Assembly (NCBI RefSeq): GCF_024345185.1
Contig: NZ_BROB01000020.1
Span: 1-45,956 of the forward strand
Source: Levilactobacillus humaensis
Lineage (GTDB): Bacteria; Bacillota; Bacilli; Lactobacillales; Lactobacillaceae
Length of the DNA: 45,956 bases
Reading direction: 5' to 3'
Positions 4,493 through 43,270 of the stretch are shown here, one piece after another; the first letter of the stretch is position 1; each line of letters begins with the position of its first letter. The position numbers and the translations under genes are program-made. The notes beneath the pieces are model-generated. The model had not been told where the DNA came from. It made no database searches and saw only the letters and a list, made by a program, of their open reading frames with translations.

Positions 4493-4648
4493 AGCCGTGA
4501 GGGGACCGGCTAGGGGGCTCAGCGGTGTCGTTGTTGTTAGTGGGGGTGAATTTCCACCACTTACAACAAGGCCGGCTTGCGAGACCGCCCTTTGGCTCGG
4601 AAACGTGCCCACTGCGTTCCAGCCCCCTAGCTGGTCCCCGGTAAGGCG
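4493..4648 (-). repeat. Type II three-way-junction element (copy II-1)
   Basis: A 19-base outer stem with one mismatch joins 4501-4519 and 4621-4639. The conserved blocks on the minus strand are GGAACG, GTGGGCACG, CGGCCTT and AACGACAC. It is oriented opposite to the preceding type I copy. It lies downstream of the terminator of the minus-strand DUF2187 gene. Confidence 0.85.
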
Positions 4649-4701
4649 GAATCGGTGCGCATCGTTGGCAGTTTCCGTTCTAAGCCAAAAAGAGCATACG
4701 A

Positions 4702-4733
4702 AAAAGGGAACGTGGCCGACGTCACATTCCCTT
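4702..4733 (-). terminator. Terminator of DUF2187 gene
   Basis: AAGGGAACGTG (4704-4714) pairs with CACATTCCCTT (4723-4733). Read on the minus strand, the stem is followed by TTT. Confidence 0.75.
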
Positions 4734-4743
4734 GTCTAACGTG

Positions 4744-5007
4744 CTATTCTGCTGCTTCTAAAGGTTCGTCTTCCTCAGGTTCATCCATTGGATTACCCTC
4801 AGCGTCGACCAATTGAAGTTCTGCTTGGCGAATCACAACGAGATCACCGAAGGAGTCGATTTTGTCGGTTTCTTTCTTTGACAGTTGGTCTGGTTCAACC
4901 TTAACTATCGCAGAGTGTTCATACATCTTGGTAATGGTGCCGTAGAATGAATCTGAGAAGAGCTCGGTCTTTTCACAAAAGACGCGATCGTTTTCATGTA
5001 ATGCCAC
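4744..5007 (-). CDS. DUF2187 (KOW-like) small protein
   Basis: This encodes 87 residues with a GTG start at 5007 and a GGGGGA ribosome binding site about 10 bases upstream. The N-terminal 40 residues (ENDRVFCEKTE...FYGTITKMYEHSAIVKVE) match the small beta-barrel pattern of DUF2187/YkvS proteins, in which a G-x-I/V turn is followed by a valine-rich strand. The C-terminal tail is strongly acidic (EEDEPLEAAE) and longer than in the shortest members. The function is unknown; the KOW-like fold suggests binding to nucleic acid or ribosomal components, which is inference. It has its own promoter and terminator. Confidence 0.65.
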   Translation of the reverse strand: MALHENDRVFCEKTELFSDSFYGTITKMYEHSAIVKVEPDQLSKKETDKIDSFGDLVVIRQAELQLVDAEGNPMDEPEEDEPLEAAE

Positions 5008-5039
5008 AGCAATCGTCCCCCTTAAAAGTAATTTATAAA

Positions 5040-5068
5040 AGGATAAGGGTTACGGGACTAAAAGTCAA
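5040..5068 (-). promoter_or_regulatory. Promoter of DUF2187 gene
   Basis: On the minus strand: -35 TTGACT (plus coordinates 5063-5068), a 17-base spacer and -10 TATCCT (5040-5045). Confidence 0.6.
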
Positions 5069-5143
5069 GACCTTTTGAAGAAAAAGTTTCAAAAACTGAA
5101 TTATTTAGAGCCTTATTTAGTATGCTAATGATTGAGCAAGAGC

Positions 5144-5752
5144 CTAGTGCCGCAGTTGATCGATGCGTTCTTGCGTGGCCAAAGCATTCAATAGTTCGGT
5201 TTGTTTGGCAACCTGGGCGGTGAAGTCCGTTAGGAAGGACAATTCGAGGTCACCTAAGGGCCGCTGTTGTTGGGCGGCATCTAGCAAGGCGTCGACCTGG
5301 CTGTGAAGGGCCTGATTGGTTGCCAGAAGGTCTCTGAAGGCGCTGGTGCCACTGAGGCCCGCGGTAGCTGGTGCCACGGTCCGAGTGACCTGCTGGGGCG
5401 TCGTAGTGGGTCGCGAGGCCTTAGGCTGGCTCGTCGCGACCTTGACGACGGGGCTGACCGTTGGGGCTGGCGTGGTGTCGGGTTCGCCATCGAAATAGTA
5501 GAAGACCTGACGCGGCTTGCGGGCGGCCTTCTTGAGCCGAGGATCGACGGAAGGGGCCGCGGAGACGGCACCCATGACCGCGGAGTTGGCGTAGCCGAGG
5601 GCAACTAGTTTTTGTCGTAGACTGACCGCTCTAATCCCGCGAATCCCGGGGAACTTTTCCTGGGAGACGACTTCCGTTTCTGCTGGATCTTGAAGCCAGC
5701 TGATAATCTGTTGGCGAATCTTTGCCGCCTGACTGTTTTTCGTGTTTGCCAT
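5144..5752 (-). CDS. Hypothetical protein with Pro/Thr-rich linker
   Basis: This encodes 202 residues. The start ATG at 5752 has GGAGG seven bases upstream. Residues about 1-60 form a helical, possibly winged-helix-like domain (AKIRQQIISWLQD then SLRQKLVALGYA). A low-complexity Pro/Thr/Ser/Ala linker follows (about 90-130), then a C-terminal helical segment (about 135-200) with heptad-like leucines, suggesting a coiled coil. No signal peptide or membrane segment is seen. The layout of two helical parts joined by a flexible linker fits a DNA-binding or scaffold protein, but I do not recognise the family. Confidence 0.6.
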   Translation of the reverse strand: MANTKNSQAAKIRQQIISWLQDPAETEVVSQEKFPGIRGIRAVSLRQKLVALGYANSAVMGAVSAAPSVDPRLKKAARKPRQVFYYFDGEPDTTPAPTVSPVVKVATSQPKASRPTTTPQQVTRTVAPATAGLSGTSAFRDLLATNQALHSQVDALLDAAQQQRPLGDLELSFLTDFTAQVAKQTELLNALATQERIDQLRH

Positions 5753-5940
5753 TGTAGGGCCTCCATGCGTGTATTTATTATAAATAGTATAGTCTTAATT
5801 GGGCGAATCTGCTGGCGGGCCGAGAGCCGTCGCCGAGCGCTATTCATTATTGAAACATGTTTGCCCCACGCAGACAAGGGCCAGCTAAAATGAGAGGGCG
5901 ATTGGGATTTCGCTCCTGACTGATCTTTTCAGGGTAAGTA

Positions 5941-6146
5941 TGGTACAATCGAAGTACATAGAGGAATTATCTGGTGATGCCAAGCGTGTTCGACGTTTGG
6001 TAGGGCTGGCATCACTGTGTACCCGGAGGTCGATCGAAGATTGCTGCTGGGCCGTGGTTGCCACCAGTCGCGCCACGGAGCTCCCCCACCGATTGACCAC
6101 GTGTTGATAGCGGGAGGGGGTACCTGAGCACGACCCTTCCTTTTTT
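5941..6146 (+). ncRNA. Structured leader/attenuator upstream of 6197 gene
   Basis: An extended -10, TGGTACAAT (5941-5949), predicts an RNA starting near 5956. Hairpin A is GTGATGCC (5974-5981) with GGCATCAC (6008-6015), with an inner AAGCGT/ACGTTT. Domain B is closed by GTACCC (6019-6024) with GGGTAC (6118-6123). Within it, GGTCGATCG (6028-6036) pairs with CGATTGACC (6090-6098), and CCGTGG pairs with CCACGG. The 3' strand of domain B overlaps the 5' strand of a terminator (6113-6119 with 6134-6140, then TTTTTT), so the two are mutually exclusive. The gene at 6197 begins 50 bases later. I could not match it to a known riboswitch class. Confidence 0.5.
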
Positions 6147-6196
6147 ATTTTCTGCCAAAATCGGATAATTTCCAATCAATTTAGGAGTGAACAATT

Positions 6197-6463
6197 TTGC
6201 ACATTTTTAGAGATGAAAACGGGATTCGTCTGGTCGTTTCCCATCAGACCGGTCACTACGCTGCCCACTTTGCGACTTACGCCCCTGAACAGGAATTTAT
6301 TAATTACACTTTGGAACGGGATAAGCACGGCCGTTATCATCTGAGCATTGATAAAACCAATTTAGTTGAGCTCGACTCACCAGTCTTCAAGAAGGAACTG
6401 GTTTTCGGTGACTTGGGTGACAGCTTAACGCCACTTCAAGGCGTTACGTTAATGTTAATCTAA
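6197..6463 (+). CDS. Small hypothetical protein (88 aa)
   Basis: A TTG start at 6197 is supported by AGGAG at 6183-6187. The protein is 88 residues, soluble and mostly beta in character, with alternating hydrophobic residues (RLVVSHQTGHYAAHFATY and YHLSIDKTNLVELD). No catalytic motif, signal or membrane segment is seen. It follows a structured attenuator-like leader and is terminated immediately after the stop, so it seems to be a regulated single-gene unit. I do not recognise the family; it is likely a conserved hypothetical of lactobacilli. Confidence 0.6.
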   Translation: MHIFRDENGIRLVVSHQTGHYAAHFATYAPEQEFINYTLERDKHGRYHLSIDKTNLVELDSPVFKKELVFGDLGDSLTPLQGVTLMLI

Positions 6464-6500
6464 GCGGAAGCGCTACGGCTTTGGTCGCAGCGCTTTTTTT
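6464..6500 (+). terminator. Terminator of 88-aa protein gene
   Basis: AGCGCT (6469-6474) pairs with AGCGCT (6489-6494), followed by seven T. A type II element begins about 20 bases later. Confidence 0.8.
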
Positions 6501-6519
6501 CATTCTGCGGGTCTGGTGG

Positions 6520-6682
6520 CTCCGGTCTTCCGGGTAGCTCCTGAGAGGGCTGGAACGCCATGGGCGCGTCCGGAAGCCGAAGAGCGGTCTACCGGACCGG
6601 CCTTATTGTAGGCTAGCAAAGGACGCCAGCCTACAATAACGACATGGCTGAGCCCTCTCAGAAGCTACCCTCCAGGCCTGCG
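6520..6682 (+). repeat. Type II three-way-junction element (copy II-2)
   Basis: A 20-bp outer stem with one mismatch joins 6532-6551 and 6651-6670. The inner hairpin has a perfect 12-bp stem, TTATTGTAGGCT (6604-6615) with AGCCTACAATAA (6628-6639). The middle hairpin is GTCCGG with CCGGAC. The conserved GGAACG, GGGCGCG and AACGACA blocks are present. It stands alone, with no reverse partner before the next gene. Confidence 0.85.
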
Positions 6683-6823
6683 CCGTACAGACGATCAAGA
6701 AAACCGCGTAATTGTGGTTGTTAATTCGCGTGATATAAAGAATTTTATACCACGGCGTCAATTGGGGCCGTGGCGGTTCGGCCATTTTGGTCAGGAAGCC
6801 TTGAAACGTCTGGCTTGCTTAAT

Positions 6824-6842
6824 GTAACTACGAGTATTACAG
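6824..6842 (+). promoter_or_regulatory. Possible MarR/HxlR-type operator before SDR gene
   Basis: TGTAA and TTACA form an imperfect inverted repeat across 19 bases in front of the SDR gene, within its probable promoter region. Redox or electrophile-sensing regulators of the HxlR/MarR type often control genes of this class, but no regulator is adjacent. The assignment is tentative. Confidence 0.3.
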
Positions 6843-6878
6843 TATAACCATAAACTAAAAAGAAACGAGGGTCTTCAT

Positions 6879-7520
6879 ATGACAAATGTCTTAATCTTAG
6901 GTGCCAACGGTCGCATTGCCCAGTTGGCTACCGAACAATTATTAGCCAATGATCGGAATCACTTAACGCTGTTCCTGCGTAACGCCAGCCGTTTGGCCGA
7001 CGCCGCTGGTAGTCGGGTTAAGGTGGTTGATGGGGACGCCGACAACGAAGCCGACCTGAAGGCTGCCATGGCCGACACCGACATCGTTTACGCCAACTTA
7101 GCCGGCGACAACATCGAAGACCAAGCCAAGACAGTTGTGGCGGCGATGGATGCCACCAATGTTAAGCGCTTGATCTGGATCTCCACGCTGGGGATTTACG
7201 ATGAAGTGCCTGGCAAGTATGGTGAGTTCAACCACAAGATGCTAGATGGCGGTTACCTCGAAACGTACAGTGCCGCTGCCAAGGTTATCGAAGGATCCGA
7301 CCTGGACTACACGATTATCCGGCCAGCTTGGTTGAGCAACCGCGATGAGATTGACTACGAAACCACTCAGAAGGGCGAACCTTTCAAGGGTACCGAAGTT
7401 TCACGGAAGAGTATTGCGGCTCTGGTTACCCAGCTGGTGGCCGATCCAACGCAAGCCATTCACGCTTCTCTTGGGGTGAACAAGCCCAACACCGATGGCG
7501 ACAAGCCTGTTTGGTACTAA
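6879..7520 (+). CDS. NAD(P)-binding SDR/NmrA-like oxidoreductase
   Basis: This encodes 213 residues. It begins with the Rossmann nucleotide-binding motif ILGANGRIAQ (residues 5-14), the atypical SDR pattern GxxGxxG. A conserved RLIWISTLGIY block (around residue 100) and the YTIIRPAWLSN block (around 145) follow, as in NAD(P)H-binding proteins of the YwnB/YhfK group. It is soluble. Members are NADPH-dependent quinone or aldehyde reductases or redox-sensing proteins; the substrate is unknown. GAGGG lies about 10 bases before the ATG. It has its own terminator, so it is monocistronic. Confidence 0.82.
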   Translation: MTNVLILGANGRIAQLATEQLLANDRNHLTLFLRNASRLADAAGSRVKVVDGDADNEADLKAAMADTDIVYANLAGDNIEDQAKTVVAAMDATNVKRLIWISTLGIYDEVPGKYGEFNHKMLDGGYLETYSAAAKVIEGSDLDYTIIRPAWLSNRDEIDYETTQKGEPFKGTEVSRKSIAALVTQLVADPTQAIHASLGVNKPNTDGDKPVWY

Positions 7521-7533
7521 ACTAGTTAATTTA

Positions 7534-7560
7534 GAAGCTCGTCTTTTGACGGGCTTTTTG
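7534..7560 (+). terminator. Terminator of SDR gene
   Basis: AGCTCGTC (7536-7543) pairs with GACGGGCT (7548-7555) across a TTTT loop, running into TTTTT. Confidence 0.85.
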
Positions 7561-7668
7561 AATTAGTTAAAAAATAATTTCTTCCTATAAACACCTGTTT
7601 ACCGGCGTTCGTTCGGCTAGAGCGGAAAAGATCGGGTCAAAAAGAGTGCAAAAGGCGTCAATTCGCGG

Positions 7669-7856
7669 TATAACTATGGTGTGCGCTGAGTATGGCGCAC
7701 AAGCCAGAGACTTGTTTTTTACTTAACTTGGAATCAATTTACTAAGCTATTCTGTGAAACTTTTCCTCCAAACAAGAACCCATGGATTTGCCTGGAATTG
7801 ATTCATATGTTGTGTAACACCGTTGGCGGTCATGACCCGCTGGCGGTGCTTTTTTG
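7669..7856 (+). ncRNA. Candidate small RNA with CCTCC loop
   Basis: A -10-like TATAAC at 7669-7674 precedes three hairpins. The first is GTGCGC (7681-7686) with GCGCAC (7695-7700). The second is a perfect 9-bp stem, GAATCAATT (7731-7739) with AATTGATTC (7796-7804), holding a 56-base loop that contains CCTCC at 7766-7770. The third is a terminator: CACCG (7818-7822) with CGGTG (7844-7848), with GCGG/CCGC inside, then T runs to 7856. No open frame uses the region and no gene follows. The exposed CCUCC could pair with Shine-Dalgarno sequences. The promoter call is weak. Confidence 0.45.
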
Positions 7857-7867
7857 TACTCGGGTCT

Positions 7868-8024
7868 GCGGGCCTTCCGGGAGGATGTTGTGCGGGCTGG
7901 AACGTGGTGGACACGGTTTTGAGCCAAAGAGCGGTCTCAAAATCCGGTCTTAGTCTAACCGGAGAAAATCCCTCCGCTAAGACTAAGTTCACCACTGAGC
8001 CCGCACAACACCCTCCCTCCAGGC
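7868..8024 (+). repeat. Type II three-way-junction element (copy II-3)
   Basis: A 20-bp outer stem with one mismatch joins 7879-7898 and 7998-8017. The middle hairpin has TTTTGAG with CTCAAAA, and the inner stem is CTTAGTCT with AGACTAAG. It starts about 12 bases after the terminator of the candidate small RNA. It stands alone. Confidence 0.85.
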
Positions 8025-8320
8025 TGAGAAGACTAGTTCTGAAGCATCAGCGGGTGCGGGTCAGACAATCTTGATGGTCTAATAGGATTTTCCAAGCAGA
8101 TTCATAAAAATTTTGCCATCTAAATTAACGGATCCAACCGGGGAATTTTGACGCCCACCTAAATTAAGATTGGGTAGCCAATTTCATACCTGGAGCGGTC
8201 CACTGAAATTGTCTTGTCAACAAGCTTCTAACGCCGGTATGACGGCGTTTGCAGGTGAGCAATAAACTTGACTTTTTGGGGCTAAACTTGGTCAAAAATA
8301 AATTTGAAATTTATTGTTAT
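8025..8320. other. Intergenic stretch without recognised feature
   Basis: No credible open frame. The only structure seen is a short stem, AACGCCG with CGGCGTT (about 8231-8250), which lacks a T run and is at best a weak terminator. Confidence 0.4.
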
Positions 8321-8324
8321 TTTT

Positions 8325-8354
8325 GTTGTAAACGCTTACAACACGTGATACTAT
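8325..8354 (+). promoter_or_regulatory. cre (CcpA) site overlapping promoter of large RNA
   Basis: GTTGTAAACGCTTACAAC (8325-8342) contains TGTAAACGCTTACA, a full match to the cre consensus TGWNANCGNTNWCA. It overlaps a -35 TTGTAA (8326-8331), followed by a 17-base spacer and an extended -10, TGATACTAT (8346-8354). A cre over the -35 predicts CcpA repression when preferred sugars are present. Confidence 0.75.
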
Positions 8355-8360
8355 AAAGGT

Positions 8361-8939
8361 GCGGAAAGGAATTAAGAGTTGTGAGATTCAGTTTTTCAGA
8401 TTCAAATCTAGTTGGTAACTGCTTCAAGAAACCGATTTCCGTTTTGACGCGAGACAGGTTTTACGATTCAGGATCCCGCACCATTGAAAAAAAGTTTTTG
8501 ACAACTCCGATAACCCTTCTAAAGAACTCTAGTAGCTTCAGGTACCAGGTTACAGTTTCATCAACAACTTAATATCTGCTTTAAGCTTAGCGCTTGACGT
8601 AAGCGTGGATGTTTCCAAAGATTAGACGACAGTTCCAGAGTTTCACTAGAGCTCCTATGTTACGGTGACAGAGGTCATGCAAGGATTTCAACAAGAATCG
8701 ATATAGCGTGTTCTGTTAGGGTAATGAAGGCATTAAGAAAATTGATTCAAGCTGAGACGATAGCCAGAAATTAAATAATATGAGAACGGCTGTGACAGCT
8801 CAGTTGGAAAAATATAGTTATGAGGCGATTAAGAATTAAATTGATTACGAAACGGGAATTTAGTAGTAATCACAACCTCCTTTCCGTGAGTTAGCGGACT
8901 TCAAGTCATCTCCATTTCAAACTTGAAGTTCGTTTTTTT
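8361..8939 (+). ncRNA. Candidate large structured non-coding RNA (ROOL-like size)
   Basis: The promoter at 8326-8354 and the terminator at 8895-8939 define an RNA of about 580 nt. Its 5' end pairs with its 3' end: CGGAAAGGA (8362-8370) with TCCTTTCCG (8878-8886), and GTTGTGA (8378-8384) with TCACAAC (8870-8876). Local hairpins include AGATT/AATCT near 8398, GCGCTT/AAGCGT near 8590, GCTGT/ACAGC near 8789 and GATTAC/GTAATC (8843-8848 with 8866-8871). Coding is poor: the longest frame (GTG at 8381, 63 codons) covers only a third and has no recognisable protein features. Size, end pairing and host group fit ROOL, a class of about 580-nt ornate RNAs reported in Firmicutes. That assignment is inference, as I cannot recall enough of the consensus to test it. 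Confidence 0.55.
8895..8939 (+). terminator. Terminator of large RNA
   Basis: CGGACTTCAAG (8895-8905) pairs with CTTGAAGTTCG (8922-8932), followed by TTTTTTT. Confidence 0.85.
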
Positions 8940-9400
8940 ATGCACTTTTTTGGCTTTCTAAAATTTTGTTTTTCCGACGCCACGGCCCGTGTGATCCCTT
9001 AATGACGTGGGTTGGTCATCGTAAGGGTCGCAACAGTCCGCTCTATCCGTTGGTTATAGGAGGACCTATTCTTTAGACGATCCATTACCGGTGTGAATTG
9101 ATTGGGAATTGGTATAAATAAGATTCCCACGACAGCGGGTGAAGCTCGGATAGCGCGGGGGAGAATCGGCTAGTAGGCCGTTTCACTTCGCTGGCCGGTA
9201 GCGAGCGAGGGAAGGTCCCAGCCCACCATCTATCTGGGTAATTGCGGCGTCCCTAGACCAATTGGAACCGCTTACCAATTGTATCAGTTTTGTTCGGCTA
9301 TTCTTCAGCCAATTCTTATTGTTCAGTTATCCACCACCTGACCGGTTTATCGGTCGAAATTAACCCGATCCCGGCAGTTAGGTAAATGAAATCGCCATTA
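8940..9400. other. Long intergenic region, short hairpins only
   Basis: No plausible protein gene. Short palindromes are visible: ATAGG/CCTAT near 9056, GGGAAT/ATTCCC near 9104-9127, and TTCGCT/AGCGAG near 9187-9205. An extended -10-like TGGTATAAA lies at about 9110-9118. The stretch 9140-9230 is G-rich and could be a structured RNA, but I could not close a convincing global stem and there is no terminator after it. It is not related to the type I/II repeats. Confidence 0.35.
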
Positions 9401-9418
9401 TAAATGTATAAATGTAAC

Positions 9419-9450
9419 GTAAACCGTTTAACGAAAAAGAAAACGTTTTC
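9419..9450 (+). promoter_or_regulatory. Tandem LacI/GalR-type operator-like palindromes
   Basis: TAAACCGTTTA (9420-9430) and GAAAACGTTTTC (9439-9450) are palindromes with a central C/CG, as in operators of LacI-family regulators. They lie about 100 bases upstream of the promoter at 9549 that serves the nucleoside module. The second resembles cre but lacks the outer TG/CA. A short direct repeat (TAAATGTA twice) precedes them at about 9401-9416. Confidence 0.4.
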
Positions 9451-9548
9451 GCCAATATCTGTGATCTGCCGCGATTCTTAGAGTCGCAAGGATCGTTAAG
9501 GGGCGTAATGTTCGGAAATGGGTTTCTCAGAAATTATGCAATCAGCCA

Positions 9549-9577
9549 TTTACAGGCGGCGATGGAAACGGTATATT
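9549..9577 (+). promoter_or_regulatory. Promoter of phosphopentomutase-like gene
   Basis: -35 TTTACA (9549-9554), exactly 17 bases, then -10 TATATT (9572-9577). The RNA would begin about 55 bases before the GTG start. Confidence 0.7.
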
Positions 9578-9641
9578 ATTACTAGACCGAAATTTTGCCA
9601 ACGTCGTTTTTGACGGGGTGGTTACGAAGGAGTGAGCAACG

Positions 9642-10466
9642 GTGGCTTTTCATCGCATCTTTGTTATTGATTTTGCCGGCTTAGGCTTAGGCGAAGCCCC
9701 CGACGCTAACCGCTTTCAATCCGTTGGCGCAGATACAATTGGACATGTGGCGGCTAGTTGGTCGGGTAAACTAAATCTTCCAACATTACAGCGCTTGGGC
9801 CTCGGAAACATTCGGGTTGACCATCCGCTACCGGGCGTCCCACCTATCGAACATCCCGACGGCTTCTTTGGCCGCCTGCACATGGCCGCCAGTGATAACG
9901 GGCGGGCCACGGGCTTACGGGAGATGTGGGACTACACCGGGGAGACCCGGACCCGCAGCGTGTTCGATACATTACCGGTGGCAGGTTATCCCGTAACTGT
10001 TGCCGGCCCTTTCCTTAGCTACCTGCAAACGCAGGATACCGTTGAACGGTTCCAGATCGGCAGTAATCAGGATGCCTTCCGCGTCCTCTACGACCAGCTC
10101 TACCGACCAGCCTCTGGGGTGGCCACGGTGATGCTTCCGGAATTTCGTTTCGCGGGTGAGGAAGGGAACGTTGGGGAGTTTGGGAAGGCGTTGATGAACG
10201 CGGACCACTACCTGGCGCAGGTCATGAATGACATGGGGGCTAACGACCTCCTCATCCTGACCGCCACGCACGCCGGAGACCCGACCATGCCAGGTAAGCC
10301 GACTCGCGAGTACCTGCCATTGATGGCCTATTCGCCATCTCGGCCCAGCGCCCATGCCTTGGGTATTCGCCGGACCTTAGCGGATGTTGGGGCCACGGTG
10401 CTTGAGAACTTCGGCCTGGCGCGTAACGCCGCCGGACATAGCTTTATGAATGAATTAACGCAATAA
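9642..10466 (+). CDS. Phosphopentomutase-like protein lacking the cap domain
   Basis: This encodes 274 residues with a GTG start and AAGGAG at 9627-9632. Both ends match phosphopentomutase (DeoB). The N-terminus reads FVIDFAGLGLGEAPDA...GADTIGHVA...LPTLQRLGLGNI; the C-terminus reads LLILTATHAGDPTMPGKPTREYLPLMAYSP...TLADVGATVLENFG. DeoB has about 390 residues, with a cap domain inserted between these parts, and most of the cap is absent here. Several active-site motifs are changed: TADHG becomes TATHAG, the (D/T)TGHWE loop becomes ATGLREMW, and the YGHRRD metal-ligand motif is not recognisable. Mutase activity is therefore doubtful. It lies upstream of nucleoside transport and hydrolysis genes, so a role in ribose-phosphate or nucleoside metabolism is plausible. 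A regulatory or different phosphatase role is equally open. Confidence 0.8.
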   Translation: MAFHRIFVIDFAGLGLGEAPDANRFQSVGADTIGHVAASWSGKLNLPTLQRLGLGNIRVDHPLPGVPPIEHPDGFFGRLHMAASDNGRATGLREMWDYTGETRTRSVFDTLPVAGYPVTVAGPFLSYLQTQDTVERFQIGSNQDAFRVLYDQLYRPASGVATVMLPEFRFAGEEGNVGEFGKALMNADHYLAQVMNDMGANDLLILTATHAGDPTMPGKPTREYLPLMAYSPSRPSAHALGIRRTLADVGATVLENFGLARNAAGHSFMNELTQ

Positions 10467-10496
10467 TAAAACGCAGCACGTTAAACTAGCACCATG

Positions 10497-10740
10497 AAAG
10501 GAGGTGAGGGGCACAGCATCGCAGGAACATTTTCGACCAACCAAGGGTCGTGTAGATCGTCAGAAGAAGATTCATCAATTATTCAAGTCCCTTCGCAGGG
10601 ACCTATTCACCAATTCTCTGACGAATACGATCCGGGCGTCGACACCGCGATGAACGTTTCAACAACTGTGGTACATAGAGATTCTTAGGGACCACTTAAC
10701 GGTTTGTTTAAAACTGACGGGTCGTCGGTTAAAAAATTCG
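10497..10740 (+). promoter_or_regulatory. Structured leader region before nucleoside permease gene
   Basis: TCGTCAGA (10557-10564) pairs with TCTGACGA (10617-10624), and inside it GTCCC (10587-10591) pairs with GGGAC (10598-10602). AAAGGAGGTGAG at 10497-10508 is complementary to the 16S anti-Shine-Dalgarno over 11 bases, but no ATG, GTG or TTG follows within 15 bases. A frame of 64 codons from an ATG at 10494 begins inside it and looks non-protein-like. The region may be a leader RNA or the remains of a gene. Confidence 0.35.
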
Positions 10741-17159: not shown

Positions 17160-17343
17160 TCGCCTGCGGTGACCAGGGGTTCCGTCCTGTGGGGCACGCC
17201 CGAAGCCTGAGGAGCGGTCTTCGGACTCGCTTCCAGCCCCACACAACCCGTGGGTCTTGAAGACGTCCCAGTTTCTAAGACCGGCAGTTCACCGGCCTAA
17301 GAAACTCGACACAGGATTCCACCCCTGGTCAACTCCGGCTGAG
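17160..17343 (+). repeat. Type I multi-hairpin element (copy I-2)
   Basis: The outer stem GACCAGGGG (17171-17179) with CCCCTGGTC (17322-17330) is extended by TCCTGTG (17185-17191) with CACAGGA (17310-17316). Inside are three hairpins: CGAAGCC (17201-17207) with GGTCTTCG (17216-17223), a CAC/GTG hairpin at 17239-17253, and GTTTCT (17271-17276) with AGAAAC (17300-17305) closed by CCGG pairs. It starts 16 bases after a stop codon. Confidence 0.85.
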
Positions 17344-17509: not shown

Positions 17510-17661
17510 GCCTGGAGGGTGGTTCTGAGGAGGCTCAGCCGTGTCGTTATTGTTGGTTGGCGTTCTTTGCCAACTTACAATAAGGCCGCTCGGGGAGACC
17601 GCGCTTTGGCTTCCCGACGTGCCCATGGCGTTCCAGCCTCCTCAGAACCACCCGGAAGGCC
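17510..17661 (-). repeat. Type II element (copy II-4), reverse partner of I-2
   Basis: A perfect 19-bp outer stem joins 17517-17535 and 17635-17653. The inner stem TTATTGT...GTTGGC pairs with GCCAAC...ACAATAA, and the middle hairpin is CGGG with CCCG. Conserved blocks are on the minus strand. The 165-base spacer from copy I-2 holds no gene. Confidence 0.88.
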
Positions 17662-23335: not shown

Positions 23336-23482
23336 CGGCGCCTCCGGTCGGTTCTGGAGACGGTGGAACGTGGTGGGCCCGTCGGGAAGTCTCCCCGAAC
23401 GGCCTTATCGTAAGCCGAGTGAGGACCCTCGACTAACGATAACGACACCACTGAGCGTCTCCAGAACCGACCTCCGGCCTAT
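23336..23482 (+). repeat. Type II element (copy II-5)
   Basis: A perfect 17-bp outer stem joins 23346-23362 and 23456-23472. The inner hairpin is TTATCGT with ACGATAA. The middle hairpin is shortened to TCGGG/CCCCGA with almost no loop, so this copy is slightly smaller. It stands alone in forward orientation. Confidence 0.86.
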
Positions 23483-24581: not shown

Positions 24582-24741
24582 CCTCACGGGCGTCAGCTAG
24601 GGGGCTGGAACGTGGTGGGCACGACTTGAAGCCTTTCAAAGGGCGAAAGTCTACAAGTTCGGCCTTGTTGTAACCGGGGAAGGGCATCCCGCTAACAACA
24701 ACGACACCACTGAGCCCCCTAGCTGACGCCCTCCGGCTGAG
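24582..24741 (+). repeat. Type II element (copy II-6)
   Basis: A perfect 19-bp outer stem, GGGCGTCAGCTAGGGGGCT (24588-24606) with 24713-24731. GGAACG, GTGGGCACG and AACGACACCACTGAG are all present. The middle hairpin is ACTTG...CAAGT and the inner one TTGTTGT/ACAACAA. It is a good reference copy for the family. Confidence 0.9.
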
Positions 24742-25024: not shown

Positions 25025-25177
25025 GCCTGGAGGGAGGTTCCGTACATGCTCAGTGGTGTCGTTCTCGTTGGCCGAGGTTTCTCACTCGGCTTACGAGAAG
25101 ACCGGCTTTTGAGACGTTCTTTGGCTCAAAACCGTGTCCACTACGTTCCAGCGCCTAGGGAACCTCCCGGAAGGCGA
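25025..25177 (-). repeat. Type II element (copy II-7), reverse
   Basis: The outer stem is 25032-25050 with 25150-25168, but 4 of 19 positions mismatch, the most decayed stem of the family. The inner stem TTCTCGT/ACGAGAA with GCCGAG/CTCGGC and the middle stem CTTTTGAG/CTCAAAA are intact. It is an inverted partner of II-6. Confidence 0.85.
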
Positions 25178-28255: not shown

Positions 28256-28440
28256 GGCCGCCGCAGGTGGCCAAGGGTTCCGTCCTGTGGGGCACGGGTG
28301 AAGCCTGAAAGGCGGTCTTCACCCTCGCTTTAAGCCTCACCAAAAGCGTGAGTCTTAAAGTCGTCCCAGGCTGTAAGGCCGGAAGCCCACCGACCAAACA
28401 GCCTCGACACGGGACTACACCCTTGGCCACCTGGGGCTAG
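28256..28440 (+). repeat. Type I multi-hairpin element (copy I-3)
   Basis: A perfect 13-bp outer stem, GGTGGCCAAGGGT (28266-28278) with 28419-28431. Three internal hairpins follow: GAAGCC...GGTCTTC, TTTAAGCCTCAC with GTGAGTCTTAAA, and GGCTGT...ACAGCC. It shares TTCCGTCCTGTGGGGCACG with copy I-2. Confidence 0.87.
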
Positions 28441-28631: not shown

Positions 28632-28790
28632 CGAGCAACCTTCCGGCTGACAGGGCTCAGGTGTGTCGTTAGTCTTGGTCGGGTGGCCTTCCCGGCTTAG
28701 ACTAAGGCCGAGCTTGTAGACTTTCGATTTTTGAAAGGCTTCAAGTCATGCCCACCCCGTTCCAGTCCCTGTCAGCTGGGAGGCTGCGGG
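28632..28790 (-). repeat. Type II element (copy II-8), reverse
   Basis: Outer stem 28643-28657 with 28764-28780 (one mismatch, one bulge). The inner stem is TTAGTCT/AGACTAA, with GTCGGG/CCCGGC. The reverse-strand blocks GGAACG, GTGGGCA and ACGACAC are present. It pairs with copy I-3. Confidence 0.85.
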
Positions 28791-28950
28791 GTCATCGACT
28801 AACGTTGCCAATTTGAAGAGCTAGAGGTCCCCTTTGGGCTTTGAAAGGCTTCAAGTCGTGCCCACCCCGTTCCAGTCCCTGTCAGCCGGGAGGTTGCGGG
28901 GTCATCGTCAAACGTTGCCGATTTGAAGAGCTAGAGGCACCCTTTTGGCT
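28731..28950. repeat. 110-bp tandem duplication including the end of II-8
   Basis: 28731-28840 and 28841-28950 are two direct copies, about 90% identical by eye. Each begins TTGAAAGGCTTCAAGTC and includes the distal arm of the type II element plus about 55 bases of flanking DNA. The second copy therefore holds an orphan half element that cannot fold alone. Confidence 0.85.
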
Positions 28951-35922: not shown

Positions 35923-35925
35923 GCG

Positions 35926-37481: not shown

Positions 37482-37498
37482 GATGCAGGGAGAACTTT

Positions 37499-37843
37499 AT
37501 GAATGCAGTTAATAACTGGAACAGTACGCAACATTTTTGGCTAATTATTTTGGGATTTGTTGTCGCCTTCGTCCCACGTTTCGTGCCGCTGATGTTATTC
37601 ACCAAGCGGGCCATTCCTGAATGGTTTAACGAATGGATGAAGTTTGTGCCGGTGTCATTGTTTACGGCTCTAGTGGTTAAAGATATTTTCATTGATATCT
37701 CTAGCTACGGGTTGGTTCTAACCAACTATCCCTTAATGATTGCGGCAGTGATTGTGATCTACATTGCCTATCGAACACGGTCAATGGCGGTTTCCGTCAT
37801 TGTCGGGCTGGCAGGGGTATTCCTCCTGTCGATGTTCCTTTGA
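37499..37843 (+). CDS. azlD: Branched-chain amino acid exporter subunit AzlD
   Basis: This encodes 114 residues with four predicted membrane helices. The VAFVPRFVPLMLFTKRAIPEWFNEWMKFVPVSLFTALVVKDIF region is diagnostic of AzlD, the small partner of AzlC. GGGAG precedes the ATG. It is the second and last gene of the operon. Confidence 0.92.
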   Translation: MNAVNNWNSTQHFWLIILGFVVAFVPRFVPLMLFTKRAIPEWFNEWMKFVPVSLFTALVVKDIFIDISSYGLVLTNYPLMIAAVIVIYIAYRTRSMAVSVIVGLAGVFLLSMFL

Positions 37844-37868
37844 CATTAATTTAACGAATAAATCAGAT

Positions 37869-37900
37869 GAGGTCTGGCAGTCATGCTGGGTCTCTTTTTT
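37869..37900 (+). terminator. Terminator of azlCD
   Basis: An 11-bp stem with several G-U pairs joins 37869-37879 and 37884-37894, followed by TTTTTT. Confidence 0.78.
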
Positions 37901-38122
37901 GATCCAGTTTACAAGAATATCAGTTTAAAATATGATTATCATTGTTATTAGTTTTGAATTGAAACTACTTGAGCTGGCTCAACTATAACACGTTCTGTCA
38001 GGCAGGGATACCAGAGATGAAAATCAGGAACAATGGTTAAGAAGCTCGTCAGTTTGGCCGGCAGAAGTGTTGCCATCAAAGTTGAAGTGCAGTAGGATTT
38101 GACTGCAGTAGAGGAGGTTCTC

Positions 38123-38359
38123 ATGACACAACCAATTTCAATCAAATTTGAAGATGAGACAGACCAGTTACTCACAGCCTATACGCAGGCTCACGGAATA
38201 AGTAAGTCAGCTTATATTAAACAAGTAGTTTCGACTAACTTAGAGGATTGGAGCGCGATCCAAATCGCCGACGAAGCCTATCAATCCTGGAAGGCTGATA
38301 ACTTTCAAACTAAGTCTTGGCTGGAAACGTTGGCGATATTGGAACGAGACGATAAATAA
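38123..38359 (+). CDS. RHH (RelB/DinJ-like) orphan antitoxin
   Basis: This encodes 78 residues from the ATG at 38123, with GAGGAGG at a good distance. The N-terminus ISIKFEDETDQLLTAYTQAHGISKSAYIKQVV has the beta-helix-helix pattern of ribbon-helix-helix DNA-binding antitoxins. The remaining part (AYQSWKADNFQTKSWLE) resembles the toxin-binding tail of RelB-like proteins. No toxin gene lies next to it: upstream is non-coding and downstream is a strong terminator. It is probably an orphan antitoxin or an autonomous regulator. Confidence 0.7.
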   Translation: MTQPISIKFEDETDQLLTAYTQAHGISKSAYIKQVVSTNLEDWSAIQIADEAYQSWKADNFQTKSWLETLAILERDDK

Positions 38360-38372
38360 AAATTCGGATCAA

Positions 38373-38420
38373 AAAAGCACCACCAACCCGGTGATCAATC
38401 CAGGTTGGTGGTGCTTTTAA
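38373..38420. terminator. Bidirectional terminator (antitoxin and cfa)
   Basis: A perfect 16-bp stem joins 38373-38388 and 38403-38418. The A run before it and T run after it allow use from both strands by the two convergent genes. Confidence 0.92.
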
Positions 38421-38456
38421 GTTGGTCGAATGATCCGCGGTCATTAGGCCAGTTGA

Positions 38457-39659
38457 TTAGTCCGTTACTTTTGATTTATCGTGGGTCTCATCGTACATGT
38501 AGTCCCGCGTCATTGGTAACATCCGGGCTGAAGGGCCCTTTGAGATCAAATACTGAATCACGTCAATATTACCAGACTTGAATGATGCTGCGCAAGCCTG
38601 AAGATAAAGATCCCACATCCGAACAAAGCGTTCGTCAAACATCTTGACCACTTCGTCACGGTGTTCGTTGAAGTTCTTGTCCCAAATCTCCACCGTCTTT
38701 TGGTAGTGACGACGGAGAGGTTCCATATCATCGATCTGCAAACCACTCTCGATGATGTGGGTGGTGTTTTCAATCAAGCCAGGCACGTAGCCACCTGGGA
38801 AGATCCACTTGTTCAACCAACCATTGTTGGCCCCACCCTGTTGCCGGGTGATTCCGTGGATTAAGGCGACACCGTCGTTCATCAGGTACTTTTGAACACA
38901 TTCAAAGTATTGGCCCAAGTTTTCCTGACCAACGTGTTCGAACATCCCAACAGAGGTGATGTAGTCCCACTTTTCGTTGCCTAATTCTCGGTAGTCTTCC
39001 AACCGAACTTCGGCAACGTCTTCGAGGCCATCTTCTTTAATGCGGGCATTCACGTAGTCGTATTGTTCTTGGCTCAACGTAATCCCGGTGACGTGCAGGC
39101 CGTATTCCTTGGCTGCCGTCAACATCAGGGTACCCCAACCACAACCAATATCGAGAAGGGTTTTACCCGGTTGGGGGTTCAGCTTCTTGATGATGTGATG
39201 AACTTTGTTAACCTGTGCGGTGTACAAATCATCATCGGGTGATTCGAAGTAGGCACAGGAGTAAGTCATGGTGTCATCCAGCCATAACTTGTAAAAGTTA
39301 TTCCCAATATCGTAATGGTCTTGCACGTCGGACTTACTTTCTTTGACCGTGTGCTTTTGTTTTGGCAGGAAGTGGATAAACTTCTTGTTGTGGAAGAAGG
39401 AATCCGTGTTTTCGTAGGCCGCAGTAATCAGGTCTTCGATGCTGCCGTCGACTTCAATCTTACCGTCCATGATCGCTTCTCCCAACGCAATGGAGGCGTT
39501 GCTGGAGATTTCCTTAATCGGAATGGCTTCGTGGAAGGTAATGGTGATGTCGGGAGTGCCAGTCCCATAGACATCACTGGATCCGTCCCAATAGTTGACA
39601 CGGACGGGGATGTTAAAGGTGTGGCTTAGAAACGTCTTGTAGAATGTTTTTTCAAGCAT
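38457..39659 (-). CDS. cfa: Cyclopropane-fatty-acyl-phospholipid synthase
   Basis: This encodes 400 residues with its start at the ATG at 39659, where GGAAAGG lies about 10 bases upstream; the frame extends further without RBS. The SAM-binding motif is [16 protein letters not shown], preceded by [27 protein letters not shown] and followed by [16 protein letters not shown] and [13 protein letters not shown]. All are signatures of CFA synthase. It adds a methylene to double bases of membrane phospholipid acyl chains (lactobacillic acid), a stationary-phase and acid-stress adaptation. Confidence 0.96.
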
Positions 39660-39719
39660 GACAGGGGTCCTTTCCGGTTTTTCTACCATATAGTAGTGGA
39701 AAAACAAAATTACCTCATC

Positions 39720-39725
39720 ATTATA
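39720..39725 (-). promoter_or_regulatory. -10 of cfa
   Basis: TATAAT on the minus strand, about 60 bases before the cfa start. No clear -35, which would fit activator-dependent or stress-dependent control. Confidence 0.5.
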
Positions 39726-39807
39726 CGCCTTTCACCCTGTTAGACGTAAGGAAAGGATTCGGATGAAAACGGTTAACCTGGATTTTGGTCACGAGGACTC
39801 GGTAAAA

Positions 39808-39839
39808 TTGACCGATTTACCCGCTAAGCATGGTATAAT
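39808..39839 (+). promoter_or_regulatory. Promoter of TPR-like membrane protein gene
   Basis: An extended -10, TGGTATAAT (hexamer 39834-39839). TTGACC at 39808-39813 is 20 bases upstream, long for a -35, but the extended -10 can compensate. Confidence 0.6.
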
Positions 39840-39872
39840 GAGTCTACAATTAACCAGCGGAGGTCTTTCATT

Positions 39873-40751
39873 TTGAAAAAATGGGTATGGGTCGTAGCGA
39901 CAGTCGTTGTGGCACTGCTGATTGGTGGTTACGCTTATTCAAATCATCATGCGACAGCTAAAGAGTACCAGGCAGCGATGGCCAATGGCCGGACTGCTAT
40001 TCAAAGTAAGCATTACACGCAAGCAGAGAGCTATTTCCAGAACGCGCTCAAGCGGCGTTTGAATGACGAGTCAGCTCAGACGTATCTGACACAGACACAG
40101 CGTTTCGTTTCCGGGGAAAATGCATTGGATGCGCGGCACTTTACGACGGCGCGTAAGCATTACGAAGCCGTTAAGGATACCAATAAAGGCTCATCCGTCC
40201 TCGTGACGCGGGCCACGGCGAAGGTCAAGCAAGTTAAAGGAATCTTGGCCAACGTTAAGGAATTCAAGAAGATTTTAACCAAGGCCACGGGTGAGAATCA
40301 GGCCCTGAACTATGGTCAGTCCAATACAACCTTGGACGAATTATTTAACAACGCGAAGTTCCGGCAGAAGTATTACCAAAACCTGTATGACCAAGCTTTG
40401 ACATTACGGAAGTCCAACAATGCGGGTCAAGCGGCCAACACAAGTTCCTCGACGAGTGCCACGTCTAATGACAGTAGCACTGCTAGCAGCTCTAGCGCGT
40501 CTCTGACGTCGTCTGAACAGGCGGCCGCAAGTAATTACTCCGGAAGTAACGAATACACCGTTACACAGAAGGAGAAAGAGGTTAACGGTAAGGTGATTAC
40601 CGCTGCCCAGATTGCCAACGCTAGAAAGACGATCAGCGCGGCTGGTGGCCACTCGGATGCCATGAGTGACCAAGACGTGCGGGTTGCCATTCAACAGGCC
40701 AGCAAGCAAAAGATTTCGTTGGCACAATACACCCAACAAAACTTAAAGTAA
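39873..40751 (+). CDS. Membrane-anchored TPR-like extracellular protein
   Basis: This encodes 292 residues with a TTG start and GGAGG at 39861. One N-terminal helix (VWVVATVVVALLIGGYAY) anchors it, with the remainder outside. Residues about 30-170 read like TPR pairs (AMANGRTAIQSKHYTQAESYFQNAL, then GENALDARHFTTARKHYEAV). A Ser/Thr/Asn-rich linker (about 185-225) leads to a C-terminal helical segment (VTAAQIANARKTISAAGG) with an EF-hand-free acidic motif. Proteins of this build are common in lactobacilli and poorly understood. Confidence 0.7.
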   Translation: MKKWVWVVATVVVALLIGGYAYSNHHATAKEYQAAMANGRTAIQSKHYTQAESYFQNALKRRLNDESAQTYLTQTQRFVSGENALDARHFTTARKHYEAVKDTNKGSSVLVTRATAKVKQVKGILANVKEFKKILTKATGENQALNYGQSNTTLDELFNNAKFRQKYYQNLYDQALTLRKSNNAGQAANTSSSTSATSNDSSTASSSSASLTSSEQAAASNYSGSNEYTVTQKEKEVNGKVITAAQIANARKTISAAGGHSDAMSDQDVRVAIQQASKQKISLAQYTQQNLK

Positions 40752-40759
40752 ACGATGTG

Positions 40760-40793
40760 AGAACCCAGACGATAGTGTCTGGGTTCTTTTTTT
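40760..40793 (+). terminator. Terminator of TPR-like protein gene
   Basis: GAACCCAGAC (40761-40770) pairs perfectly with GTCTGGGTTC (40777-40786), followed by seven T. A type II element starts about 15 bases later. Confidence 0.92.
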
Positions 40794-40807
40794 CTCGCGC
40801 ATAGGGG

Positions 40808-40962
40808 GGCCTCCGGGAACCATCTAGGAGGCTGGAACGCGGTGGGCACGACTTGAAGCCCCTAGACCGGTCTTCAAGCTCGGCCTTTCCGTAACTCGAG
40901 AAGGTCACTCGACTAACGGAAACGACACGGCTGAGCCTCCTAGCTGGCTCCCTGCGGCTCAC
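40808..40962 (+). repeat. Type II element (copy II-9)
   Basis: Outer stem 40815-40833 with 40934-40952 (two mismatches). The middle hairpin is ACTTGAAGCC with GGTCTTCAAG. The inner stem is TTTCCGT/ACGGAAA, with TCGAG/CTCGA. It is nearly identical to copy II-11 in the constant and middle parts. Confidence 0.88.
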
Positions 40963-41044
40963 ACTGTCCTAACCATTAATATTCACGCTACAAATGAGCG
41001 AACTTGTTCTACTACTCGTCAAACTTAGAAAGGAACGTCCATGT

Positions 41045-41198
41045 TAGCCGGAGGTCGGTTCTGGAAATGCTCAGTGGTGTCGTTGTCCTTAGCGGAGTGG
41101 GTTGCTCCGGTTAGGACAAGGCCGTTCGGGAAGACCGCTCTTTGGCTTCCCGACGTGCCCACTACGTTCCAGCGTTTCCAGAACTGACCGGGAGGCGA
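41045..41198 (-). repeat. Type II element (copy II-10), reverse
   Basis: Outer stem 41053-41071 with 41171-41189. The inner stem TTGTCCT...CGGAG pairs with CTCCG...AGGACAA. It is almost identical to copy II-12 (a few substitutions over about 150 bases). The spacer to II-9 is about 80 bases. Confidence 0.88.
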
Positions 41199-41635
41199 GA
41201 ATAAAGGCCTAACTAGCAGAAAAAAGTGTTGTTTGCGAGTCAAGTCGGTCGATTTGGTAGGAAAACTTACCATATCTATCCGAACAGTCTTAAAACTTGA
41301 CATGATGGTAAAGTTAGCAAACAAATAAGTTAGTAAGTTAATTACTTCGCCTGCGGTATATCTAGGTAAATTAACTGTCCTAATCGCCGCCATAAAGGCA
41401 TTTTATTCGATTTTGTGAACTTGAACCCACAAATAATTCACAAGTCATTATTTACACTAAATTGGTAAGGGTGTCTTACTATATAGATAGAATCAGAAAT
41501 CTACAAGGGGGGTAGAGCAACGCTGCCCCTGAAAATAGCTGGGTGAGCACCGATCTTGGGGGATAGGGCGACCTGAACTGATTTGATTCCCAAATCACCA
41601 CAAGGCTATTGGGGGAGCGGCGTTGCCAGAAAATT
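41199..41635 (+). promoter_or_regulatory. Upstream region of ROK gene with long inverted repeat
   Basis: TTGTTTGC near 41228 pairs with GCAAACAA near 41317, and inside it ACTTACCAT pairs with ATGGTAAAGT. Together these form a long interrupted stem at about 41228-41325. Beyond it the region is A/T-rich with no gene. A TTGACA lies at 41297-41302 without a good -10. Confidence 0.35.
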
Positions 41636-42820
41636 ATGATTATCAACAAACACATCATGCGTACGACTAATGAAAAACAAGTTTTACAGCAGATTGTCAA
41701 CGCTGGTCCGATTTCGCGTAGTCAAATTTCCCGTAACCTGAGTTTAAACAAAGTGACGGTCTCTGATATTTACAGTCAGTTACTGCATGAAGGGTTGATC
41801 CGTGAGGTTGGTCACGGTGTCAGCACGCGTAACGGCGGTCGGAAACCTGTCATGGCATTGCTAAACGTGGGGTATGGTTATGTCATCAGTATTAACATTT
41901 TGCGGTCTCGGTTCTCAATGATCACCAGTCGTTTGGACGGTCGTTCTGAGAATTACGCAAGCGTCTCGACGCGTGGCGTTGATTTAACCACGGTGCTCGA
42001 TATGATCGACGAGAAGATCGCGGCAACTGTTGCCGATAGCGACACGCGGTTGTTAGGAATTTCATTCGGGTTGGACGGCACCATTTACGACAACCAGATT
42101 CTGGATTCCACTTTGAAAGGTTTCAAGAACTTTGATTTGGCGAAGTACTTTAGCGACAAATTCCAAGTTCCCGTTGTCCTAGAAGACCTGGCTAATCAGT
42201 CGGCAATCTTCGAGCGGGACTTTTCCGGCGAGGGTGTTTACCGCAACCTGATCTCCGTAACGATTAGAGACCAAGTCAGTGCCGGAATCATTACCGAAGG
42301 CCACCTGTATCGTGGTCACAACGGTGAAGCCGGAAACATTGGGACTTGTCCGTTGGCCGATCGTTACCAGGAAGGGAATTCCGAAACCGTCAACCACTAT
42401 GTGGCAGAGGGTACAGTGCTTCAACGCATCATGGCGTACCAGAAGATTGACCGGGTCGATGTTAACCGGATTCGTCGGGATTACCTGGGTCACCGGCCAG
42501 AATTGTTGGCCATTCTCGACGAGTTTGCTTATTACCTGGCCAAGGTTTTAGGGAACCTGTCCAACACGTTTGCGCCGGATGCCATCATTGTCAACGCCCC
42601 AATCTTGGAGCTGTTGCCAGAAATGATGGATACCGTGCGGAACTACGTGGACCAATTGGCTATCGTCCGCAAGGCGCCACTCCTGTTGACCAAGAACTCA
42701 CGGGAAGCTTCCTTGAAGGGTGGGGCTTCGGCAATTATCCACCGGGCCTTGGCACTCGATGATTTACAATTGACCTTCACTAACGAACGGTCAACCGTTC
42801 TCGAGGGTGTTGAATCCTAG
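41636..42820 (+). CDS. ROK family transcriptional repressor (XylR/NagC-like)
   Basis: This encodes 394 residues from the ATG at 41636. The start IINKHIMRTTNEKQVLQQI is typical of ROK repressors, but the RBS is not obvious, and a TTG at 41609 is possible. The winged-helix domain reads GPISRSQISRNLSLNKVTVSDIYSQLL, followed by the GRKP wing. The ROK domain includes LLGISFGLDGTIY, LEDLANQSAIFE and GHNGEAGNIGTCPL. The zinc motif CxCGxxGCxE of sugar kinases and many NagC proteins is not seen, so it is probably a pure regulator. No sugar genes are adjacent. It lies between two inverted repeat pairs. Confidence 0.85.
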   Translation: MIINKHIMRTTNEKQVLQQIVNAGPISRSQISRNLSLNKVTVSDIYSQLLHEGLIREVGHGVSTRNGGRKPVMALLNVGYGYVISINILRSRFSMITSRLDGRSENYASVSTRGVDLTTVLDMIDEKIAATVADSDTRLLGISFGLDGTIYDNQILDSTLKGFKNFDLAKYFSDKFQVPVVLEDLANQSAIFERDFSGEGVYRNLISVTIRDQVSAGIITEGHLYRGHNGEAGNIGTCPLADRYQEGNSETVNHYVAEGTVLQRIMAYQKIDRVDVNRIRRDYLGHRPELLAILDEFAYYLAKVLGNLSNTFAPDAIIVNAPILELLPEMMDTVRNYVDQLAIVRKAPLLLTKNSREASLKGGASAIIHRALALDDLQLTFTNERSTVLEGVES

Positions 42821-42845
42821 ACGAAATGAATTGAATAAACTTTGG

Positions 42846-42875
42846 AAAGCGTGGATGCGGCCACGCTTTTTATTT
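42846..42875 (+). terminator. Terminator of ROK gene
   Basis: AAAGCGTGG (42846-42854) pairs perfectly with CCACGCTTT (42861-42869), followed by TTTATTTT. A type II element starts about 25 bases later. Confidence 0.9.
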
Positions 42876-42898
42876 TGCGTTCAGGTTTTGTCGGGGTC

Positions 42899-43056
42899 AG
42901 CGCCTCCCGGAAACCAGCCAGGAGGCTGGAACGCGGTGGGCACGACTTGGAGCCCCCAGATCGGTCTCCAAGCTCGGCCTTTCCGTAACTCGAGAAGGCC
43001 GCTCGACTAACGGAAACGACACGGCTGAGCCTTCTGGCTGGTTTCTTCCGGCTAAT
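42899..43056 (+). repeat. Type II element (copy II-11)
   Basis: Outer stem 42909-42927 with 43028-43046, all paired with two G-U. The middle hairpin is CTTGGAGCC with GGTCTCCAAG; compare CTTGAAG/CTTCAAG in II-9, a compensatory change. The inner stem equals that of II-9. Confidence 0.9.
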
Positions 43057-43116
43057 ACTGCCTTATCCCGTCAAAATACGATGGTTCACCTTCATGATTT
43101 GATGGGGCCGCTATGT

Positions 43117-43270
43117 CAGCCGGAGGTCGGTTCTGGAAATGCTCAGTGGTGTCGTTGTCCTTAGCGGAGTGGGTTACTCCGGTTAGGACAAGGCCGTTCG
43201 GGGAGACCGCACTTTGGCTTCCCGACGTGCCCACTACGTTCCAGCGTTTCCAGAACCGACCGGGAGGCGA
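43117..43270 (-). repeat. Type II element (copy II-12), reverse
   Basis: Outer stem 43125-43143 with 43243-43261 (one G-U). It is a near-identical copy of II-10. The spacer to II-11 is about 60 bases. Confidence 0.9.

Follow-up and report, generated by a model that had tools for sequence, protein, structure and literature searches.

Inverted pairs of branched, covarying intergenic arms in Lactobacillaceae, a candidate REPIN-like mobile element

The 45,956-nt stretch of Levilactobacillus humaensis contig NZ_BROB01000020.1 analyzed here (the window; its genome is coded G000) contains 15 copies of a highly structured intergenic element, which we call an arm. Twelve arms (type II) are built around a three-way junction, and three longer relatives with a fourth arm (type I or type I-like, four-way junction) lie on the minus strand at 17170-17330, 28268-28428, and 4201-4367. 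Six minus–plus pairs hold 12 of the 15 arms. At a probability of about 0.5, we propose that the arms form a non-autonomous, REPIN-like mobile element of Lactobacillaceae (REPIN, REP doublet forming hairpins; REP, repetitive extragenic palindromic sequence) that spreads through single-stranded DNA (ssDNA).

Fold and covariation of the arms

A preliminary description of this DNA had listed 12 intergenic segments with constant blocks as one family of type II copies. All 12 were found with these blocks and the family is real, but most of its members are halves of inverted pairs, and the three type I arms belong beside them. We searched for arms with two models, R1 for type II and R2 for type I.

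All 12 type II cores (117-134 nt) fold into an outer stem that carries a two-hairpin three-way junction, as had been read from the sequence. Their fold z-scores range from -4.47 to -9.57, and for each core none of 200 dinucleotide shuffles folded as well as the native sequence. The three-way junction thus stands, but the strand first read (GGAACG...CTGAG) was the complement; the opposite strand folds better and has the additional stems P2 and P0. On this strand, the blocks follow the order GCC-GGAG ... CTCAG ... GTGTCGTT ... AAGGCCG ... AGACCG ... GGCTT ... CGTGCCCAC ... CGTTCCAGC ... GGC. The fold leads from the outer stem P1 through an inner loop and a 6-bp P2 to the three-way junction with P3 and P4, and a short P0 stem (GCC/GGC), identified by eye, lies outside a GGA/GGA inner loop. 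Type I arms have a further hairpin and a four-way junction, and they share the blocks GTGTCG, GAAGACCG..GGCTTC, and TGCCCCAC. Most weak R1 matches turned out to be arms of this type. Two arms, L229:3429-3582 and L251:11665-11826, fit neither type well in their middle part and possibly represent a third kind.

The 12 window copies were aligned with MAFFT without structure (alignment A2). In this alignment, 25 of 43 pairs vary on both sides, and 94.5% of 513 cells are paired. The covariation score is 0.515, against 0.194 after shuffling (none of 500 shuffles reaches the native score) and 0.07-0.11 with the partner displaced by 1-3 columns, a comparison in which the native structure is favored over the slid controls, as it was derived from A2 itself. 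Further pair types are not unusually numerous (45 versus 42.5 in shuffles, with 118 of 500 shuffles reaching the count). In 144 distinct arms, drawn from several genera and including those of the window, 41 of 43 pairs vary on both sides, 96.0% of 6011 cells pair, and the score of 0.609 compares with 0.173 after shuffling and no more than 0.102 after sliding; the set stems from 150 rows fitted to the model, so that the alignment leans towards the structure, and relatedness is controlled only in part. Alignments A3-A5 and A8-A10 were likewise fitted to models. In type I arms, 34 of 50 pairs vary on both sides (20 of the first 23 sequences, two misfits and one near-duplicate being excluded). The compensatory variation around constant junctions claimed at the outset is therefore present, and the covariation supports the further claim that the arms are constrained as a folded single strand. 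As far as the tests reach, neither outcome named beforehand as refuting these claims was seen.

Pairing might instead be maintained by mutation itself. Hairpin template switching would copy one side of a stem onto the other, and ectopic gene conversion would keep the junction blocks alike. Many stem pairs do use all four Watson–Crick types with few G-U pairs, as this process would produce, and the arm at window 6538 resembles its counterpart in Levilactobacillus paucivorans (G020; L065:6224) in the outer stem columns (0.85 alike) and not in the interior (0.58); the two parts of this arm have different histories. Changes between orthologous arms of at least 0.8 identity speak otherwise, with 55 single-sided changes and only 13 double compensations. 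Of the single changes from a Watson–Crick pair, 30 lead to G-U, 13 to A-C (two-sided p 0.014), and 12 to other mismatches. This count retains 45 of 55 arm pairs; the other ten fall below the identity limit and were dropped because loci with a replaced copy inflate the double changes (43 in G000–G020). Both comparisons, G000–G020 and G020–G015 (L. lindianensis), use G020, and many G020–G015 arms lie in near-identical stretches. Correction of palindromes also does not predict a strand bias, and the junction letters are conserved across genera. We consider it an improbable explanation.

The stability of the two strands was compared in 304 arms of five Levilactobacillus genomes. With RNA parameters the strand assigned by the models comes out as more stable in 255 of them, with DNA parameters in 275, and minus and plus arms give similar results. 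Together with the excess of G-U over A-C, this stability favors one strand, without separating RNA from ssDNA. The arms might accordingly act in transcripts (in processing, stability, or insulation) or as small RNAs, with selection on the RNA. The same covariation and G-U excess would be expected of such RNAs, as would consistent three- and four-way junctions with conserved internal loops. Two features fit them less well: the strand preference appears with DNA parameters too, and G-U makes up just 3.9% of standard pairs in type II and 8.6% in type I arms, figures that stand without a reference rate. The arrangement of the arms bears on the same question.

Paired units and their genomic setting

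Neighboring arms less than 800 bp apart are oriented minus–plus in 93 cases, plus–minus in none, and on the same strand in 5 (304 arms in 1.59 Mb of the five Levilactobacillus genomes, in stretches picked for known matches; only R1 was applied to G015, G020, G017, and G018). An overlapping set of the 145 best arms, which includes named loci of other genera and omits L131 and L087, which duplicate L067 and L068, gives 40 minus–plus, 0 plus–minus, and 1 same-strand neighbors. The median spacer between paired cores is 75-216 bp across the five genomes, and spacers can be as short as 48 bp (between the cores at L132). At the outer end, conservation declines some 17 nt from where the P0' GGC begins (67 of 92 arms could be anchored, 25 could not). 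From the pair polarity and this limit of conservation, the unit is most likely the pair, with the 3' end of every folded strand on the outside. By eye, the inner foot reads TAGCC-GGAG or CTAGTCC-GGA and the outer one GGA-GGC. Pairing between the outer flanks of the same unit is not supported, as their score of 15.3 (27 units) compares with 17.1 for 80 same-species mismatches (p 0.88).

The pairs make up six of the nine places occupied in the window, with the left arm on the minus and the right arm on the plus strand, and every type II core matches R1. The type I-like arm at 4201-4367 (R2 E 2.3e-10, R1 E 0.11) is paired with the core at 4507-4634 (R1 E 1.1e-26, R1 having been built from this arm; z -5.48), and the type I arm at 17170-17330 (R2 E 4.3e-34, a member of the R2 training set) with 17522-17648 (z -8.69). 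Type II cores at 24593-24725 (z -8.52) and 25037-25163 (z -4.93) form the third pair. In the fourth, the type I arm at 28268-28428 (R2 E 2.8e-37, also in the training set) faces 28644-28778 (z -4.95), a core that lies partly inside a tandem duplication of 110 bp (92%) at 28730-28949, which takes in the 3' part of the arm and its outer flank. The two remaining pairs consist of type II cores, 40820-40946 (z -5.34) with 41058-41184 (z -8.00) and 42914-43040 (z -4.47) with 43130-43256 (z -7.80). Unpaired type II cores are found on the minus strand at 6538-6664 (R1 E 6.1e-29; z -9.57), 7885-8011 (z -8.85), and 23351-23467 (z -7.53), the last with a shortened P4.

A compact subfamily in G017 and G018 consists of an A arm, about 75 bp, and a B arm, with 23 units in the stretches covered. 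Some of these units have the terminal repeats CGCCTTACCGG/CCGGTAAGGCG at both ends, and others have lost the right end. At L285, L287, L290, L293, and L295 of G018, some units show an extra shared outer stretch (TTGACTAAACGTAG-like), sometimes followed by a terminator-like hairpin, so that in this subfamily the element may extend further.

With DNA parameters, the strand whose 3' end lies outermost is preferred in 134 of 152 minus arms and 141 of 152 plus arms. This preference is also expected under one further model, in which the arms are the ends of a hairpin-primed replicon. The inverted terminal repeats of parvoviruses such as adeno-associated virus form T-shaped folds with a three-way junction and lie inverted at both ends. 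The units here likewise have inverted three-way-junction folds at both ends, and their A and B arms are distinct. However, about 15 conserved nt fall outside the fold, and a replication gene was not found in the few between-arm intervals scanned and was sought nowhere else. No replicon or Rep gene is known for the units and their center is short, so we see a resemblance only and regard replicon ends as very unlikely.

The units occupy gaps between genes. Convergent gaps account for 56 of the 182 gaps with arms, compared with 65 of the 290 gaps that measure 400 bp or more (the 290 include gaps with arms). A gene is overlapped by 4 of 304 arms, a number that is biased low, because open reading frames (ORFs) located largely on arms, along with short ORFs sharing more than 100 bp with an arm, had been removed beforehand. 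At window locus 42899, inspected by eye, a terminator-like hairpin precedes the unit and a promoter-like sequence follows it in three species. This single locus argues against a role in transcripts, and the pairs do so as well: paired arms point outwards, so that a transcript running across the unit always contains one of them in antisense, and the 48-bp spacer at L132 would hardly accommodate divergent promoters. Taken with the evidence from the fold, we regard structured RNA as possible but rather unlikely. Elsewhere in the window, the ORF at 9642-10466 aligns with phosphopentomutase over its C-terminal part alone (218-395 of the 396 profile positions), and the gene may be split or frameshifted.

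Changes between loci and the search for a mover

Near-identical arms occur at different loci. In a metagenome-assembled genome of Candidatus Companilactobacillus pullicola, arms on two contigs (L083/L089) are 96.7% identical over 211 bp. In G018, many places are 85-96% identical to arms and units of G017; one such pair of places is a 7-kb duplication. In orthologous regions, arms are absent, truncated, or replaced between species. The left arm at window 40820-40946 is absent or degenerate in G020 and G015, and its partner at 41058-41184 is absent from G020; by eye, G020 retains end remnants only at this locus (40808/41045) and G015 a stub on the left. Both arms of the pair at 42914-43256 are retained in the two species. 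Two units are inverted between G017 and G018.

Two further observations were made in the same comparisons. Another repeat, some 130 bp in length and with long ends that complement each other (GTGCGAYAAAAGGC...GCCTTTTRTCGCAC), is found at L271:5017-5153 (G000) and at about 6020-6160 of L281 (G018); at a given site, one species may have it and another lack it. G020 (L065, L216, L217, L219) and G015 (L236-L239, L248), species that otherwise differ by about 6-15%, share stretches of 3.5-11 kb at 99.1-99.98% identity, which would reflect either recent gene exchange or assembly contamination.

In the mobile element that we propose, a complete unit would comprise a minus-strand left arm, a spacer, and a plus-strand right arm. 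Each arm, from its 5' end at the spacer to its 3' end outside, would present P0, the GGA/GGA inner loop, the long P1, an inner loop, P2, and the three-way (II) or four-way (I) junction. An enzyme would recognize this folded single strand by its shape, as REP-associated tyrosine transposases (RAYTs) and IS200/IS605 enzymes do with REP hairpins. Because the stem sequences drift while the pairing, the letters at the junctions, and the lengths of the stems persist, shape is what such an enzyme would most likely read. The unit would spread through an ssDNA intermediate without target duplication, settle in gaps between genes, and then decay arm by arm through deletion at direct repeats. A broader claim is that the arms define a previously undescribed class of bacterial mobile element whose two ends, single-strand folds with three- or four-way junctions, are read by shape on the 3'-outer strand, and whose movement or replication, via hairpin ssDNA, depends on an enzyme other than a Y1 transposase or a reverse transcriptase; this we hold to be doubtful.

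Several results weigh against mobility through such a mechanism. The preliminary description looked for proof of mobility in genomes with and without a copy at the same locus. Presence and absence are indeed seen, but the orthologous loci compared yielded no clean insertion matched by an exact empty site. Several of the presence/absence breakpoints fall in direct repeats, so that many of these differences look like deletions. The two unit inversions may be plain strand switching and not the work of a transposase, because the loop of an ordinary terminator hairpin beside one of the inverted units (G017 C18:88060-88600 versus L281 of G018) is inverted too. No target duplication was found, the longest shared word being 4.64 in 50 true pairs and 4.68 in mismatched pairs. 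For two query units, no plasmid match was obtained with blastn, which could miss distant copies.

The search for an enzyme points the same way. A Y1 transposase (PF01797) is present in 23 of 35 Levilactobacillus genomes. It was not found in the element-rich G017, G018, and G020, and G012, a genome without R1 or R2 matches, has five. Among 30 loci of the 67 Y1 matches (checked with R1 only, about 1.5 kb of flank), none has arms on both sides and two have one arm on one side. RAYT/Y1 is not supported as the mover on these two grounds, absence from three element-rich genomes and the lack of flanking arms. A reverse transcriptase, and with it a retroelement identity, is not supported either, since RVT_1 occurs in only one of ten genomes (G023) and not in G000, G015, G017, G018, or G020.

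A gene-bearing unit was not found among eight minus–plus intervals of 0.8-6 kb, a scan that omitted L229 and L237 as lying opposite the intervals of L271 and L216. One interval has no ORF of 100 aa. Among 19 ORFs scanned in five others, 14 match ordinary Pfam families, none of these being a transposase, recombinase, or replicase family, and 5 have no Pfam match. No autonomous parent with the same ends was found in the 1.59 Mb of the five genomes; a genome-wide search was not made.

Distribution and comparison with known systems

The genome of the window carries at least about a hundred arms. R1 gives 34 matches below E 1e-14 and 130 up to E 1 (best 150 of 963 candidates scored), and R2 gives 131 at E<=0.001 (best 150 of 592), a list that overlaps that of R1. 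In 478 kb of this genome, the two models together identify 100 arms. R1 matches are present in at least 33 of 35 Levilactobacillus genomes (99 candidates scored per genome); G012 and G024 are taken as element-free. Applied across the family, as the preliminary description had proposed for an arm model, R1 has matches in at least 75 of 301 Lactobacillaceae genomes and 13 of 40 genera (11 candidates scored per genome). An order-wide sample of 295 genomes from 74 genera, scored to the same depth, gives at least 10 with a match, all of them Lactobacillaceae (the sample's division between this family and others is not given). Named hosts include Levilactobacillus, Lactiplantibacillus, Companilactobacillus, Lacticaseibacillus, Limosilactobacillus, Schleiferilactobacillus, Lapidilactobacillus, and Pediococcus. 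A pattern scan over 84,980 species yielded at least 116 loci, and 108 of those listed are from Lactobacillaceae. The eight others were dismissed as chance, none matching R1 at E<=1e-4 (R1 was run on 80 of the 116 loci, including all eight).

Rfam 15 has no match in the window at gathering score, and in two stretches the arms lack any match at E<=1, in keeping with the initial view that no named family has these blocks. The elements are not described in the literature searched, whose coverage mostly excludes subscription papers, nor in the accessible portions of PMC2267715, PMC2817692, PMC3733652, PMC3116915, and PMC3446304. They thus appear to be an undescribed, family-wide, highly structured element of widely used food bacteria. 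If their ends are recognized by shape, they would offer a natural set of hundreds of compensated variants from which to learn how an enzyme reads a branched fold.

The closest likeness is to REPs, REPINs, and bacterial interspersed mosaic elements (BIMEs). According to the accessible text of PMC3733652, PMC3116915, and PMC2817692, REPs are dispersed and intergenic, form inverted doublets with a variable spacer and partners that can differ, and undergo compensatory change that keeps the structure. Most of them are located between genes that are unidirectional or convergent, and members of the IS200/IS605 family do not produce larger target duplications. The arms are also dispersed intergenic inverted doublets with compensated stems (polarity 93 : 0 : 5). 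In contrast to REPs, which are simple hairpins of 20-40 nt, the cores here measure 117-161 nt and have three- or four-way junctions; a Y1 (RAYT) gene has arms on both sides in 0 of 30 loci, and a GTAG or CGTC tag is not established for them.

Among miniature inverted-repeat transposable elements (MITEs) and the bcr1-type repeats of Bacillus cereus, which the available part of PMC3446304 describes as short, many-copy, folded, and intergenic, the arms would find a similar setting, as all four properties hold for them (bcr1 was compared by description, not by sequence). Some of the 23 G017/G018 units also have sharply ended terminal inverted repeats, CGCCTTACCGG...CCGGTAAGGCG, as MITEs do. The difference lies in the target duplication, which was sought here and not found; a parent transposon was sought in part of five genomes only.

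CGTC-tagged REPs are mostly head-to-head dimers for which no dedicated transposase is known, and the word stem 'lactobacill' is absent from the main text of their description in the portion available (PMC3733652). They resemble the present units in their paired inverted arms and in having no known dedicated transposase, but their stems are 8-9 bp with loops of 4-5 nt. A CGTC-like string is seen by eye at the outer end of some Companilactobacillus copies.

The elements thus work most like REPINs. Because they differ from REPINs in size and in their relation to RAYT genes, and from MITEs in the target duplication test, we assign them to neither. Alongside the CGTC-tagged REPs, they would be a second REPIN-like system without a known transposase.

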